Source: Acidocella sp. KAb 2-4 (GTDB taxonomy: Bacteria; Pseudomonadota; Alphaproteobacteria; Acetobacterales; Acetobacteraceae). From it: 64,000 nt of DNA. Within the stretch, counting starts at the first letter, position 1; each line of letters opens with the position of its first letter. Below the pieces are notes generated by a model, which saw nothing but the letters and a program-made list of their open reading frames with translations, did no database searches and had not been told where the DNA came from. Made by a program: the position numbers and the translations under genes. The stretch is from positions 62,001 to 126,000 of the forward strand of contig NZ_JAJDJU010000005.1 in assembly GCF_020567705.1 (NCBI RefSeq). The letters run 5' to 3'. Below are positions 1,095-55,306 of the stretch, piece by piece.

Positions 1095-2103
1095 TGAACG
1101 GGCAATCCTTATGCGCGCCGCAGGGCGAGCCGCCGCGGCATAATCCGGGGTTGGCGGCGCGGCGCACGATGCCGGCCAGTGCCGCGATGAAGGCCGGGTC
1201 GTCATTCTGCGCCGGCACGCGGAAATAGCCCGGCACCTGGGCCTGCTCCGCGACATGGCGGTTCTCGATGTCCAGCTCGACCAGCGTCTCGATATGGTCG
1301 GAAATGAAGGCGATCGGCGACACCACCGCCACCACGCCGTCGCGCCCAGCCTGCTCGATCGCGGCGATCGTGCTCGGCTCCAGCCATTTTTGCGGCGTGG
1401 CGCGCGATTGGAAGCAGACCAGATGCTCGACATCCTGGTCCTTGAGCCGCGCCATCACGCCCGAAACCGTGGCTTCCACCTGCGCCTGATACGGGTCTCC
1501 GGCCTTAATGATGCTTTCCGGCAGGCCATGCGCCGAAAACAACACACGGATCTTCATCCCCGGATGCGCCGCCTTGGCCTTGGCGATGGTCGCGTCGACC
1601 AGCGCGGCGGTGGCGGCGCAATAGGCGGCATCGTCAAACCAGCAGCAGATGGTGGTGGTGGGCTTGGCCAGCCCGGCCCGCGCCGCCGCCTCGCGCCAAT
1701 CATTCAGCGAGGAGCCGGTCGTGGTGCTGGAAAATTGCGGATAAAGCGGCAGCAGCACGATGCGGTCAGGGTTCCAGGCTTTCACCTCGCGCGCCACCTC
1801 GGCCGCGAAGGGGTGCCAGTAGCGCATGGCAATGAAGCTTTTATTCGTCCCGCCCAAGGCCTGCTCCAGCGCCGCCGCCTGTTTTTGGGTCAGCCCCAAA
1901 AGCGGCGAGGATCCGCCCATTAGCGCGTAATTCTCCGCCGCCGCCTTGGCCGAACGCCCCGCGATCAGCCGCGCCAGCCAGAAGCGGATGAACACCGGGG
2001 CGCGGATGATCGCCTTGTCGGAGAACAGATTGACGCGGAATTTCTGGATCGCGGCTGGGCTGTCCGGGCCGCCGAGGTTGAACAGGACGATGGCCGTCTT
2101 CAT
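1084..2103 (-). CDS. hemH: ferrochelatase
   Basis: A 339-residue ferrochelatase, which inserts Fe2+ into protoporphyrin IX as the last step of protoheme synthesis. The N-terminus KTAIVLFNLGGPDSPAAIQ, the QFSSTTTGSS segment and the catalytic-His motif FSAHGLPESII are family signatures. The C-terminus has three cysteines (CRGGSPCGAHKDCPF). Some microbial ferrochelatases, including that of Caulobacter, carry a [2Fe-2S] cluster on Cys ligands. Whether these cysteines do so is inference. The ATG overlaps the hemE stop by 4 bases, which indicates coupled translation. Confidence 0.96.
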   Translation of the reverse strand: MKTAIVLFNLGGPDSPAAIQKFRVNLFSDKAIIRAPVFIRFWLARLIAGRSAKAAAENYALMGGSSPLLGLTQKQAAALEQALGGTNKSFIAMRYWHPFAAEVAREVKAWNPDRIVLLPLYPQFSSTTTGSSLNDWREAAARAGLAKPTTTICCWFDDAAYCAATAALVDATIAKAKAAHPGMKIRVLFSAHGLPESIIKAGDPYQAQVEATVSGVMARLKDQDVEHLVCFQSRATPQKWLEPSTIAAIEQAGRDGVVAVVSPIAFISDHIETLVELDIENRHVAEQAQVPGYFRVPAQNDDPAFIAALAGIVRRAANPGLCRGGSPCGAHKDCPFNAA

Positions 2104-3110
2104 GCGCTGCGAATGATCTCCATCAGACGGGCCACGTTCGCCTCCGGCACGTCCGGGGTGATGCCATGGCCAAGATTGAAGATATGGGGGCGGCCACGCG
2201 CCTGCGCCAGCAGCTTGCGCGCGGCCTCGTCCATCGCCACGCCGCCGAGCTTGAGCAGCAGCGGGTCGAGATTGCCCTGAAACACCGTGCCCGGCGGGCA
2301 GACGTCAATCGCCTTGGCCAGATCGGTGACCGTATCCAACCCGACCGCGTCCACCCCGGTGTTTCGCGCATATTCGCCCAGCATCAGCCCGGCCAGACGC
2401 GGGAAGCCGATCACCTTGAGACCCGGATGCCTCGCCTTGAGCGTGGCAATGATGCGCCGGTTGGGCGCGATCACCAGCTCGCGGAACTGCGCCGCGGGGA
2501 AAATCCCGGCCCAGCTCTCGAACAGCATCACGCAATCCGCCCCGGCTTCGACCTGCGCGGAGAGATAGGCGATCGTCGCCTCGCTCAAAACCTCCAGCAC
2601 GGCGGCGACAAAGCCCGGCTGCTCATAAGCCAGCCGTCGGGTGCGGGGAAACTCTCCGCCGCCTTCGCCATCGAGCATGTAACACGCCACCGTCGCCGGG
2701 CCGCCGGCGAAGCCGATCAGTGCCGTCTCGGCGGGTAATTCGGCCCGCACACGGCGGACGGTCTCCATCACCGGCGCGTAAACACCCGGCGCCCGCGCGG
2801 TGTCCAGCGTGCTGAGGCTTTCCAGCGGCGGCAAACGCGGACCCTCGCCTTCAGCAAAGCGCAGCCCCTGCCCCAGCGCCATTGGCAGGATCAGGATGTC
2901 TGAAAATAAAATAGCGGCATCGAACCCGAATTTACGGATCGGCTGCAGGGTTACTTCAGCGGCGAGGGCCGGGTTGAGGCACAGGCTGATGAAATCCCCG
3001 GCCTGGGCGCGGGTGGCCCGGTATTCCGGCAGATAGCGCCCGGCTTGGCGCATGAGCCAGGCGGGAGGCGGCCAGATGGGCTCGCCATTCAGGGCTTGGA
3101 GCAATTTCAT
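2100..3110 (-). CDS. hemE: uroporphyrinogen decarboxylase
   Basis: A 336-residue enzyme that decarboxylates uroporphyrinogen III to coproporphyrinogen III. Signatures are PPAWLMRQAGRYLPEYRATR near the N-terminus, the SDILILPMALG segment with its active-site Asp, and GFPR with a C-terminal NLGHGITPDVP. I chose the ATG at 3110 because AGGCGG lies about six bases upstream. The GTG at 3116 would leave no spacer to that site. This is the first gene of the leftward heme operon, and its promoter must lie in the DnaA-box-containing gap at 3111-3392. Confidence 0.96.
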   Translation of the reverse strand: MKLLQALNGEPIWPPPAWLMRQAGRYLPEYRATRAQAGDFISLCLNPALAAEVTLQPIRKFGFDAAILFSDILILPMALGQGLRFAEGEGPRLPPLESLSTLDTARAPGVYAPVMETVRRVRAELPAETALIGFAGGPATVACYMLDGEGGGEFPRTRRLAYEQPGFVAAVLEVLSEATIAYLSAQVEAGADCVMLFESWAGIFPAAQFRELVIAPNRRIIATLKARHPGLKVIGFPRLAGLMLGEYARNTGVDAVGLDTVTDLAKAIDVCPPGTVFQGNLDPLLLKLGGVAMDEAARKLLAQARGRPHIFNLGHGITPDVPEANVARLMEIIRSA

Positions 3111-3169
3111 GCACACCGCCTAAACCTAAACATTATTTCTTTAAAGGTTGAGGGGTGGGGGTGGTTGGC

Positions 3170-3178
3170 TGTGGATAA
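3170..3178 (-). promoter_or_regulatory. DnaA box, perfect (TTATCCACA on minus strand)
   Basis: The plus strand reads TGTGGATAA, the exact complement of the consensus DnaA box. It is the box nearest hemE and sits just beside the AT-rich run at 3121-3147. Confidence 0.8.
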
Positions 3179-3214
3179 CGGGGTTTAACCCAATGCGCGG
3201 ATAATTCCACAAAG

Positions 3215-3223
3215 TTATCCACA
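3215..3223 (+). promoter_or_regulatory. DnaA box, perfect (TTATCCACA)
   Basis: Exact consensus box in the middle of the gap, in inverted orientation to the box at 3170 and 45 bases from it. A degenerate box (CGCGGATAA at 3196-3204) lies between them. Confidence 0.8.
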
Positions 3224-3269
3224 TCCAGAAACCAGCGGTAAGCTGCTGATTTTTACATATCCCCCATGG

Positions 3270-3278
3270 TTATTCACA
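3270..3278 (+). promoter_or_regulatory. DnaA box, one mismatch (TTATTCACA)
   Basis: Differs from TTATCCACA only at position 5. It is in the same orientation as the box at 3215, 55 bases downstream. Confidence 0.65.
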
Positions 3279-3392
3279 GGCCTAGAACAAGTTGGGCCGG
3301 TTTTATCCCATGTTCACGATTTCGCATTTTTATCCCCGGCTTTCGCAAAAAGGGGGAGGTCGGGGCAAATAATCCACGCTATTAACACAGTT

Positions 3393-4268
3393 ATGGACAG
3401 CGATAAGCTCAATATACACCTGATATCCGACGCCACTGGGGATACTTTGAACTCCCTGGGGCGGGCCGCCGTGGCGCAGTTCGATGAAGCGCTGGTGACG
3501 TATCACCGTTGGTCGCTGATCCGCTCGCGCCTGCAATTGCACCGGGTACTGGAGGGCATTCAGGCCGAGCCCGGCCCGGTGCTGTGCTCACTGGTCGACC
3601 AGGCGCTGCGCCATGAGCTGGATTCAGCCTGCGCGCGCATGGGCGTGCCGCTGTTGCATGTGCTCGACCCGGTGCTGGAGATGTTGCAGGCGCAGTTCGG
3701 CGCCCCGGCCCGGCACAAGCCCGGCCGCCAATATGTGCTGGACGCCGATTATTTCCGACGCATCGATGCCATGCATTATGTCATCAGCCATGATGACGGA
3801 CAGGCTAATCGCGGCATTTCCGACGCCGATGTCGTGCTGGTGGGAGTGTCGCGCTCGTCGAAGACGCCGACCTGCTTCTATCTCGCCAATCGCGGCATCA
3901 AGGCGCTCAACGTGCCGCTGGTGCCGGGCATCGAGCCGCCGGAGGCGCTGATGAATGACCCGCCCTGCCCGGTGATCGGCCTGACCATCGACCCGAAATC
4001 GCTGATCGACATCCGCCGGCACCGGCTGCAACTCATCGGCGGCGGGGCCGAGGCCGGGTTCGCCCGCGCCGATAAGAGCGATTACGTGGATTACGAGGCG
4101 GTGGAAAAAGAGCTGCTCTGGGCGCGGCGGCTGTGCAATGCGCGCGGCTGGCCGACCATCGACGTGACCCGCCGCTCCATCGAGGAGACATCGGCGACCG
4201 TGCTGAAGCTGATGGATAATTGGCACGCCAAGCGCGAAAAACCGCCAGCGGCGGATGACGCGGGCTGA
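3393..4268 (+). CDS. ppsR: PEP synthase/PPDK regulatory kinase-pyrophosphorylase (DUF299)
   Basis: A 291-residue protein of the DUF299/PPSR family. The N-terminus ([18 protein letters not shown]) and the P-loop [18 protein letters not shown] around residues 150-170 are diagnostic. The family inactivates PEP synthase or pyruvate phosphate dikinase by ADP-dependent phosphorylation and reactivates it by Pi-dependent dephosphorylation. Which target is used here cannot be told. The gene starts directly beside the DnaA-box region and runs away from hemE, as RP001 does in Rickettsia. No strong ribosome-binding site precedes the ATG. The SDR gene begins 12 bases after its stop. Confidence 0.93.
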
Positions 4269-9211: not shown

Positions 9212-10084
9212 TCAGCCGTTGAGCAGGGCCAGCAGCGAGTCCAATTGGTCCAGATTGGCGTAATTCAGCACCAGCTGCCCGCCCTTGCCGGTATATTTGA
9301 TATCCACCCGCAACCCGAGCCGTTCGGTCAGGCTCTCGGCCAGGGCGGCGATGTCGGAATCGGCATGGGCGCTGCTCTTCGCCTTGGGCTCTGCGCCCGC
9401 CTTCGCCGCGCGGCTGGCGGCCTGCACCAGCGCCTCGGTTTGGCGCACATTCAGGCCTTTTTTCAGCACCTCGCGCGCGGCTTTCGCCGGGTCCGGATGG
9501 CCGAGCAGCGCCTTGGCGTGCCCAGCGGTCAGCTTGCCCTCGCGCACCAGCGCCAGTGCGGCCTGGGGCAGCTCCAGGATGCGCATAATGTTGCCGATAT
9601 GCGAGCGCGACTTGCCGACCGCTTCGCCCAGCTTGTCCTGGCTGAGGTTGAACTCGCTGACCAGGCGGCGATAACCCTCGGCTTCCTCGACCGCGTTCAA
9701 ATCCTCACGCTGCAAATTTTCCACCAGCCCGGCGGCCATGGCCTCGGCATCCGAGAGCGGCTTCACCAGCACCGGCACCTCGTGCAGCTTGGCGCGCTGG
9801 GCGGCCCGCCAGCGGCGCTCACCGGCGATGATCTGGTATTGCTCGGCCTTTTTCGGGTGCGGGCGCACCAGCAAAGGCTGCAAAATGCCGCGCTGGGCCA
9901 CGGAATCGGCCAGCTCCTGCAAGGCGTCGTCCTGCATCGTCTGGCGCGGCTGAAACGGCCCCGGCTCCAGCATCTCCACCGGCAGATGCTGCACGCCGGG
10001 CGCGCTCACGCCGGGCGCCGCTGCATCGCCCAGCAGCGCCGCTAACCCGCGGCCCAAACGTTTCGGCTGTTCCTTCGCGCTCAT
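9212..10084 (-). CDS. parB: chromosome-partitioning protein ParB
   Basis: A 290-residue ParB. It starts KRLGRGLAALLGD, followed by the CTP-binding ParB/Sulfiredoxin domain (PFQPRQ, then IIAGERRWRAAQRA), the ENLQREDLNAVEEA segment, a helix-turn-helix (LGEAVGKSRSHIGNIMRIL) and a C-terminal dimerisation tail. ParB binds parS, spreads as a CTP-dependent clamp and works with ParA to segregate the origin. Two parS-like palindromes lie at 9195 and 13203, one on each side of the operon. Its ATG overlaps the parA stop by 4 bases. Confidence 0.97.
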   Translation of the reverse strand: MSAKEQPKRLGRGLAALLGDAAAPGVSAPGVQHLPVEMLEPGPFQPRQTMQDDALQELADSVAQRGILQPLLVRPHPKKAEQYQIIAGERRWRAAQRAKLHEVPVLVKPLSDAEAMAAGLVENLQREDLNAVEEAEGYRRLVSEFNLSQDKLGEAVGKSRSHIGNIMRILELPQAALALVREGKLTAGHAKALLGHPDPAKAAREVLKKGLNVRQTEALVQAASRAAKAGAEPKAKSSAHADSDIAALAESLTERLGLRVDIKYTGKGGQLVLNYANLDQLDSLLALLNG

Positions 10085-10878
10085 GTCAGCACCTTCTTTG
10101 CCCTTGCCCGCTTCATGAATTCGGCCGCCAGGGCCAGATAAGATTGCGCCCCGACGGAGCGGAAATCATAAAGCAGGACTGGAATGCCGTGGCTAGGGGC
10201 CTCGGTGACGCGGATATTGCGCGGGATCACCGTGTCGAACACCAGCTGCTTGAAGAAGGCGCGTACGTCGTTGGTCACTTGTTCGGAGAGGTTATTGCGC
10301 CGGTCGGTCATGGTCAGCACGATGCCTTCCACCTCCAGCGCCGGGTTCAGGTTGCGCTTGACCATGTCCACCGTGCGCATGATCTGCGAGATGCCCTCCA
10401 GCGCGAAGAATTCCGCCTGGAGCGGGATCAGCACGGCATCCGCCGCCACCAGCCCGTTGAGGGTGAGTAGCCCCAGGCCGGGTGGGCAATCGATGAACAC
10501 GACATCCGCCTGGGCCTGTTCGCGCAGGGCGTCGCGGAGCATGAATTCGCGCCGTTCCGTGCCGCCGAATTCGAGGTCCACGCCGATCAGATCCGCCACC
10601 GAGGGCGCGATGGTGAGGTTTTCAACCGCTGTCGGCAGTGTGCTTTCGGCCAGATTCGCCTCGCCCGCCAGCAGCCCATAGGTGCCGCCCTTGCGGTTGG
10701 CGGCGTCGATGCCCAGCCCGGTGCTGGCATTGCCTTGCGGGTCGATATCCACCAGCAGCACTTTTTTGCCGCCGACGGCGAGCGCGGCGGCGAGGTTGAT
10801 GGCCGTGGTGGTCTTGCCGACGCCGCCTTTCTGGTTGGCGATGGCGACGATGCGCGGGCGCTTAAGCTTGGGCGGCAT
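10081..10878 (-). CDS. parA: chromosome-partitioning ATPase ParA
   Basis: A 265-residue deviant-Walker ATPase. KGGVGKTT (residues 17-24) carries the signature lysine, followed by VLLVDIDPQGNASTGLG and a Walker B in VFIDCPPGLGLLT. ParA forms nucleotide-dependent dimers on the nucleoid that pull ParB-parS complexes. The start at 10878 lies 17 bases inside the end of rsmG. The gene order parB-parA-rsmG-mnmG read leftward is the classical origin-proximal gid-par operon. Confidence 0.97.
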   Translation of the reverse strand: MPPKLKRPRIVAIANQKGGVGKTTTAINLAAALAVGGKKVLLVDIDPQGNASTGLGIDAANRKGGTYGLLAGEANLAESTLPTAVENLTIAPSVADLIGVDLEFGGTERREFMLRDALREQAQADVVFIDCPPGLGLLTLNGLVAADAVLIPLQAEFFALEGISQIMRTVDMVKRNLNPALEVEGIVLTMTDRRNNLSEQVTNDVRAFFKQLVFDTVIPRNIRVTEAPSHGIPVLLYDFRSVGAQSYLALAAEFMKRARAKKVLT

Positions 10879-54508: not shown

Positions 54509-55306
54509 TCATTGCGCGGTGGTTTCGGTTGGTTCGAGCGCCGATCCGGCCTTCTGCAGAAGGCCGGATCGGCGCTTTTCGCGGAGCCTGTAGCTGTCGC
54601 CGCAGACGGTGATCACCGTGGAATGGTGCAGCAGCCTGTCCAGGATGGCGGTGGCGACCACCGGATCACCGAATACGCTACCCCATTCCCCGACCGAGCG
54701 GTTGGAGGTGATCAGGATCGAGCCCCGCTCGTAGCGCCGAGAGACCAACTGGAAGAACAGATGCGCGGCGTTGGCCTCGAACGGCAGGTAGCCCAGCTCG
54801 TCGATGATCAGCAGCTTTGGACGCGACAGGATCGTCAGTTGCTTGTCGAGGACGACGTCGCCATGGGCCTTGGCCAGCATCGCCACCAGCGTCGCCGCGG
54901 TGACAAACTGCACGCTGTAATTCTGCCGGATCGCTTCCCGCCCCAGGGCAACCGCCAGATGCGTCTTGCCGGTGCCCGGCGGCCCCAGGAACAGCACCGT
55001 GTCCCCGTGCGCAATCCACCGGCAGGCGGCCAGTTCACGGAGCTGGCGTGGATCCAGCGAGGGCTGGGCGTCAAAGTCAAAGCCTTCGAGTTCCCGCACG
55101 AACGGGAACTGCGCGATCTTGCTGGCCATGCCGATGCGGCGCTCATCGCGCCGGGCGATCTCACGCCCGGTGAGGAACGCCAGGGCTTCGCGCAAATTCA
55201 TCTCCGAGCGTGCCGCCTCGTCCAGCAGTGTGTCCAGCTGGTCGCGGATCGCGGTCAGCTTCAGCCGGTCCAGCATCGCCACCAGCGCCGCATGATCAAC
55301 CGCCAT
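54509..55306 (-). CDS. istB: IS21-family ATP-binding protein IstB
   Basis: A 265-residue IstB with an N-terminal helical region, Walker A GPPGTGKTH (109-117), Walker B LLIIDELGYLPFE and the C-terminal ILDRLLHHSTVITVCGDSYRLREKRR. IstB helps the IstA transposase choose its target. The ATG at 55306 overlaps the istA stop (TGATG). It looks intact, but its istA partner is truncated. A 38-base perfect palindrome lies in its last codons. Confidence 0.92.
   Translation of the reverse strand: MAVDHAALVAMLDRLKLTAIRDQLDTLLDEAARSEMNLREALAFLTGREIARRDERRIGMASKIAQFPFVRELEGFDFDAQPSLDPRQLRELAACRWIAHGDTVLFLGPPGTGKTHLAVALGREAIRQNYSVQFVTAATLVAMLAKAHGDVVLDKQLTILSRPKLLIIDELGYLPFEANAAHLFFQLVSRRYERGSILITSNRSVGEWGSVFGDPVVATAILDRLLHHSTVITVCGDSYRLREKRRSGLLQKAGSALEPTETTAQ
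54538..54575. repeat. 38-base perfect palindrome inside the istB 3' end
   Basis: The sequence is its own reverse complement over 38 bases, with a CTGCAG centre and arms beginning GCGCCGATCCGGCCTTCTG. On the plus strand it is followed by TTTTC, so it could stop read-through into the element from hipBA. Because it encodes RRSGLLQKAGSAL on either strand, it forms the end of IstB. Confidence 0.85.

Follow-up and report, generated by a model that had tools for sequence, protein, structure and literature searches.

A probable DnaA-dependent chromosomal origin between divergent hemE and ppsR genes in an uncharacterised genus of Acetobacteraceae

The 282-bp intergenic gap between the divergent genes hemE and ppsR (positions 3111-3392 of the window, the whole 64-kb stretch of DNA analysed here) is very probably the single DnaA-dependent chromosomal origin (oriC) of this alphaproteobacterium. 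This assignment, which a first-pass annotation had put forward as likely, is well supported by a cluster of DnaA boxes, a GC-skew minimum, conservation and synteny. The finding is mostly ordinary, such an arrangement having been described in related bacteria. It locates the origin in an uncharacterised Acetobacteraceae genus and shows the reach of the hemE/ppsR rule in that family. The more surprising material, which concerns GTAC sites and the position of dnaA, belongs to relatives rather than to the window and is offered as a lead.

The left boundary gene is hemE, encoding uroporphyrinogen decarboxylase (2100..3110, minus strand; TIGR01464, 357 bits), and the right boundary gene is ppsR, the COG1806/DUF299 regulator of PPDK and PEP synthase (3393..4268, plus strand; NF003742, 309 bits). 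The start of hemE is the ATG at 3110, the GTG chosen by the ORF tool lying upstream at 3116. Both boundary genes, as well as a likeness to the hemE-linked arrangement of Caulobacter and Rickettsia, had been recognised from the sequence at the outset; both models score over their cut-offs, and the boundary agrees with the hemE/COG1806 origin described for those two genera in the available text of PMC1914354. The genes parB (9212..10084, minus strand; TIGR00180, 188 bits) and parA (10081..10878, minus strand; ParA-type matches, the best being NF041546 at 99 bits, below the curated cut-off) were found 5.8-7.5 kb from the gap, where a distance of 6-8 kb had been given, with gidB and gidA further out. 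Like hemE and ppsR, parB, gidB and gidA all exceed their NCBIfam cut-offs, whereas the parA matches fall under theirs. A canonical parS was sought in both the window and the genome and discarded: no parS palindrome with three or fewer mismatches occurs in the 64-kb window, and GTTNCACGTGNAAC is found nowhere in the genome assembly. Elsewhere in the window, a 273-codon open frame with a weak PF00308 (Bac_DnaA) match (54695-55000, minus strand, 28 bits) could encode an Hda-type DnaA regulator. Between 42000 and 52000, G+C falls from ~67% to 53-59% and GC skew is stronger, and this segment is possibly an acquired island.

All three DnaA boxes of the gap match TTATNCACA with zero mismatches. Box 1 (TTATCCACA; 3170..3178, minus strand) adjoins an AT-rich run, box 2 (TTATCCACA; 3215..3223) lies on the plus strand, and box 3 (TTATTCACA; 3270..3278, plus strand) has a CACA core that is kept in the genus alignment. 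The first-pass annotation had counted two perfect boxes and a near-perfect one, a count that is borne out with the third box exact as well; it also mentioned several weaker boxes, and the total of eight sites with up to two mismatches is moderately above shuffles. A half box, TTCCACA (3206..3212, plus strand), lies in the TCCACA block of the genus alignment, and an element GGGGTTTAACC adjoining box 1 (3180..3190) appears as GGGGNTTAA in the genus and as GGGGTACC at some loci of the wider family. Two further sites are probably weak DnaA sites. One is TTATCCCCG (3330..3338, plus strand), which resembles a W-box with the core TCCCCA and is kept in the genus as TTATCCCC; the other is TAATCCACG (3370..3378, plus strand), which adjoins ppsR within the genus-conserved ATCCACGCTAT.

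The AT-rich run noticed earlier is confirmed on the hemE side of the gap, which is 53-54% AT compared with 35% in the 64-kb window; the five 22-mers of highest AT content begin at 3122-3128. This run (3120..3150), which contains TTTAAAG and an AAAG block kept in the genus alignment, is a candidate DNA unwinding element. Between boxes 2 and 3 lies an IHF-type site (3239..3251, minus strand), an exact match to WATCAN5WTR, the IHF consensus used in the available portion of PMC1914354. The window holds seven such matches, another being at 3413. GATC is absent from the gap, the closest listed occurrence being at 2937. Two further features were sought. For DnaA-trios, the accessible text of PMC8287927 gives a rule of (NAN)x3 no more than 16 bp from a DnaA box, which may contain mismatches; downstream of the three exact boxes the offsets are 33 for box 1 and 19 and 22 for box 2, with none for box 3, and no trio has the published spacing at these boxes. 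A CtrA-controlled origin of the Caulobacter type was set aside on finding that neither the window nor the 32 gaps from the genus contain a full TTAA-N7-TTAA site.

To gauge chance, 3117-3392 itself was shuffled 5,000 times with dinucleotides preserved; the exact boxes greatly exceed the chance level, and the weak ones do so moderately. Three exact TTATNCACA boxes were obtained in 0 of 5,000 shuffles, three sites with up to one mismatch in 15 (mean 0.30), and eight sites with up to two mismatches in 48 (mean 3.0). Across the 64-kb window the signal is weaker than within the gap, the four exact TTWTNCACA sites being matched by 3 of 100 shuffles. In the 3.1-Mb assembly TTATNCACA occurs 33 times, against 25 for a reversed-pattern control. 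The comparison of box counts with other places, suggested in advance as a check, singles out the gap: nowhere else in the whole assembly do three TTATNCACA fall within 300 bp, and the gap is also the densest 282-bp stretch of its 157-kb contig, with 11 sites of up to two mismatches and a maximum of seven elsewhere. The next closest TTATNCACA group in the assembly is a pair at C11:51100/51125. This pair (L039:6101-6134; G000:C11:51100-51133) consists of two exact DnaA boxes that face each other 16 bp apart and overlap the start of a uvrC-like ORF (L039:6121-7995; name read from sequence), and it is possibly a DnaA-controlled promoter.

The genome assembly is a 71-contig draft of 3.1 Mb, and GC skew was read over the entire contig C45 (157,406 bp). 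The cumulative minimum falls at window position 2880, 230 bp from the gap, and mean skew is -0.124 to the left of the gap and +0.035 to the right. Because the curve is nearly flat over ~44-92 kb of the contig, skew by itself narrows the position of the origin to no better than tens of kb. A complete single-contig relative with the hemE/ppsR pair (G045) was sampled in 20 stretches of 20 kb. Skew there is weak, never exceeding 0.024 in a stretch, with 10/10 stretches negative to the left of hemE/ppsR and, to the right, seven of 10 positive and three slightly negative. The sign changes between 1,590 and 1,625 kb, an interval that contains the gene pair at 1,606 kb; dnaA, at 2,224 kb, is 618 kb from the pair. 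A minimum elsewhere had been named as an outcome that would speak against an origin here; within the limits of a draft assembly, the outcome of this check favours the origin. In the window's own genome, dnaA lies on a separate contig, C7, where skew is ~zero in the first 5 kb and positive throughout the rest.

Within the genus, 38 genomes were searched, 37 had ppsR, and 30 fetched loci plus two named ones gave 32 gaps, 30 of them distinct. The divergent hemE/ppsR gap is present in all 30 fetched loci and both named loci, and two of the genus gaps look identical to those of the MAGs ZJ1.bin8 and ZJ1.bin73. The 32 gaps align well, with box 2 in the same alignment columns, and its sequence TTATCCACA occurs in 30/30 distinct gaps. 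Box 1 is kept as TGTG[GA]ATA in 27 of the 30 and as the full TGTGNATAA in 17. The adjoining GGGGNTTAA is found in 27/30 distinct gaps (L194-L223), TTATCCCC in 26, ATCCACGCTAT in 27 and the IHF-type site in 21.

At the family level, hemE was found in 57 of 60 genomes, and 57 loci were read from 56 genomes (G025 contributing two), one partial match being excluded. A divergent hemE/ppsR gap is present at 39 of these 57 loci, with lengths of 272-635 bp (31/39 under 340 bp); the family alignment comprises the 31 gaps shorter than 345 bp. The gaps, 13.1 kb in all, contain 62 boxes with up to one mismatch, compared with 12 over 129 kb of these loci. The exact TTATNCACA is present in only 11 of 39 gaps, and four have no box even with one mismatch; box sequences thus drift within the family. 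The IHF-type site is found in eight of 39 family gaps, and GGGGTACC occupies the place of GGGGNTTAA in 15. That the family is probably Acetobacteraceae was deduced from genomes classed with the window at this level: the hemE locus of one shares 90.6% identity with its Gluconacetobacter liquefaciens counterpart, and that of another is identical to MAG 'Proteobacteria bacterium G5_19'. Among named alphaproteobacterial hemE loci (80 kept of at least 596 candidates), 57 have a divergent ppsR, and six of those 57 gaps are without a box at up to one mismatch. In the 77 of 80 with 600 bp upstream, such boxes number 215 in 46.2 kb compared with 64 in 260 kb. At 17 loci where ppsR is not beside hemE, boxes with up to one mismatch number 50 in 7.65 kb upstream of hemE, compared with 11 in 35.3 kb.

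The acetic-acid-bacteria relatives, which are 16 family genomes in one supported clade of the hemE tree that includes the Gluconacetobacter relative G042, differ in this gene pair: ppsR adjoins hemE in 0/16. It is absent from six of the seven relatives searched whole, the seventh (G022) having a divergent copy elsewhere. Skew was sampled in stretches of four of these genomes, and its minimum lies at or near hemE even though ppsR is not adjacent. In G029, 10/10 stretches at 106-990 kb are negative and 9/9 from 1,036 kb are positive, the stretch at 10 kb being ~zero, with hemE at 1,025 kb and dnaA at 0.5 kb of 1,924 kb. In G013 the switch falls at 580-620 kb (hemE, 611 kb) and the opposite one between stretches at 1,815 and 1,930 kb (dnaA, 1,965 kb of 2,702 kb). 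G046 goes from negative at 1,700 kb through ~zero at 1,816 kb to positive at 1,838 kb (hemE, 1,836 kb), with the opposite switch between stretches at 648 and 710 kb (dnaA, 657 kb). Thus dnaA lies near the skew maximum, or terminus, ~half a chromosome from hemE in these three genomes. In G025 the switch lies between stretches at 1,790 and 1,850 kb, 25-65 kb from hemE (1,875 kb), and dnaA, 37% of the chromosome distant, does not coincide with the skew maximum.

These data bear on other explanations of the gap. Divergent hemE and ppsR require promoters here, and a broad skew minimum would also fit a gap that is only their promoter region under DnaA regulation, with the origin elsewhere nearby; this is nonetheless very improbable, since no second box cluster exists on the contig or in the genome, and since at least one box (up to one mismatch) persists upstream of hemE in 16/17 loci without adjacent ppsR. 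That the gap merely looks box-rich by chance or composition is scarcely credible. A gap of 53-54% AT inside a window of 65% GC would favour such an impression, as would the moderate excess of weak boxes (48/5,000), but it is contradicted by the shuffles, none of which gave three exact boxes, and by the genus alignment, in which the boxes are kept.

An origin adjoining dnaA, the position annotated for some acetic acid bacteria, is likewise extremely unlikely. In the text available from two Acetobacter genome papers (PMC3751514, PMC13209655), which concern strains other than those analysed here, oriC is placed near dnaA, and in one of the two it is equated with the skew maximum, with dif ~51 kb away. 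However, the dnaA contig C7 has no minus-to-plus switch, and in the complete relatives G029 and G013 the minus-to-plus change falls at hemE and the reverse change near dnaA. The published oriC positions beside dnaA in the two Acetobacter genomes may therefore deserve re-checking.

If the gap is the origin, DnaA would bind box 1, which faces the AT-rich run, together with boxes 2 and 3, and IHF would bend the DNA at 3239-3251. The weaker TTATCCCCG and TAATCCACG sites might then fill cooperatively to give a DnaA oligomer, by analogy with the W-boxes of Caulobacter, which the accessible text of PMC4285127 and PMC4468827 describes as weak, cooperatively filled sites with the core TCCCCA. Such an oligomer would open the AT-rich run beside hemE, helicase would load in both directions, and ParAB, encoded ~6 kb off, would segregate the new origins.

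A further proposal, which we hold only tentatively and regard as rather doubtful, is that methylation of GTAC marks, or once marked, the hemE origin in Acetobacteraceae. GTAC is absent from the window's gap. In the 16 acetic-acid-bacteria relatives, however, the 450 bp upstream of hemE contain 151 GTAC, or 21 per kb, some 20-fold the 1.0 per kb found on the hemE side, and 14 of the 16 have 6-14 per 450 bp. Inspection of 25 of the 80 named loci (11 from acetic acid bacteria and 14 others) gave 11-15 GTAC in nine of the 11 (Acetobacter, Gluconobacter, Komagataeibacter, Gluconacetobacter and Commensalibacter), 1-2 in Bombella and Parasaccharibacter, and 0-2 in the 14 others. The GTAC-dense loci, with 6-15 per 450 bp, are L030, L041, L043, L045, L047, L048, L054, L056, L057, L059-L061, L064 and L065, and, among the named, L129, L131, L136-L138, L140, L143, L145 and L176. 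Exceptions among the 16 are G032, with a GTAC cluster 26 kb from hemE, and G029, which has no methyltransferase of the type described below. Among the matches listed, spaced GTAC triples fall at the origin in 9/11 cases in G025, 7/13 in G040, 3/5 in G022, 4/20 in G013 and 1/2 in G046; such triples are thus also found away from the origin in these relatives.

The candidate writer of the mark is a solitary methyltransferase of ~280 residues with TSPPYN and DPFxGxG motifs (L288-L296, L298-L303, L306). It was sought in 80 of 97 genomes and found in 31 (>385 bits; best other match, 64.5 bits), and in none of the 21 genomes from the window's genus that were searched. The gene adjoins mltA in the five genomes scanned for neighbours. 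Of nine flanking proteins scanned, five are MltA, three are cytochrome c peroxidases and the ninth matches nothing; restriction enzymes are absent from this set. GTAC is present in the gap of 29/30 genomes with the methyltransferase and 10/26 without it (Fisher p 2.9e-6 over 56 genomes, uncorrected for kinship). On the hemE tree the methyltransferase changes at least nine times and GTAC (one or more) three times. In four well-supported independent pairs, GTAC differs in the same way in 0.3 on average, in the opposite way in 0, and not at all in 3.7; because there are only four such pairs, a kinship-controlled sign test cannot reach 0.05. The association is accordingly strong before kinship correction and undecided after it. 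Seven genomes without the methyltransferase keep a GGGTACC-type site, four of them being at most 93% complete. PF02086 (Dam-type) was found in 7/22 genomes, and under-representation of GTAC in sampled DNA fails to separate genomes with the methyltransferase from those without it.

By this scenario, the ancestral state may have been a single GTAC palindrome (GGGGTACCCC) next to DnaA box 1, from which most acetic acid bacteria examined would have built up 6-15 GTACs spread over the origin. The solitary mltA-linked methyltransferase, for which GTAC is the putative target, would write the mark and could control the origin in a manner comparable to the Dam/GATC/SeqA system of E. coli. The window's genus would represent the state without this enzyme, with GGGGNTTAA at the place of the palindrome. 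In acetic acid bacteria the origin would have stayed at hemE, and dnaA would have come near the terminus in some genera. Among the literature matches listed (titles and starts of abstracts, with most subscription papers outside the scope), there was no report of a GTAC methylome or GTAC-marked origin in acetic acid bacteria and, with DoriC also outside the scope, none of a hemE origin in Acetobacteraceae or Gluconobacter. The sites and the enzyme are a candidate for methylation-marked origins in these industrially important bacteria.

The layout of the gap can be compared with that of three known origins. The E. coli oriC consists of an AT run, a DnaA box in the same orientation, an IHF site and further boxes. 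The window's gap shares this order of AT run, same-orientation box, IHF site and additional boxes, whereas its neighbour genes are different and it has no GATC. The Rickettsia origin has identical boundary genes, hemE and COG1806, but its gaps measure 383-395 bp in the rows shown in PMC1914354, compared with 282 bp here, and the window differs further in its GC-rich host genome and in a gap without CtrA sites. The likeness to the Cori of Caulobacter crescentus, as far as the available text of PMC1914354, PMC4285127 and PMC4468827 describes it, extends to the boundary genes, DnaA boxes, IHF site, AT-rich run and weak W-box-like sites. In contrast, Cori has TGATCCACA G-boxes where the window's gap has TTATCCACA boxes, and the window and the 32 genus gaps are without the TTAA-N7-TTAA CtrA site. 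The oriC of the window thus adds a member without CtrA sites to the known hemE/COG1806 origins.
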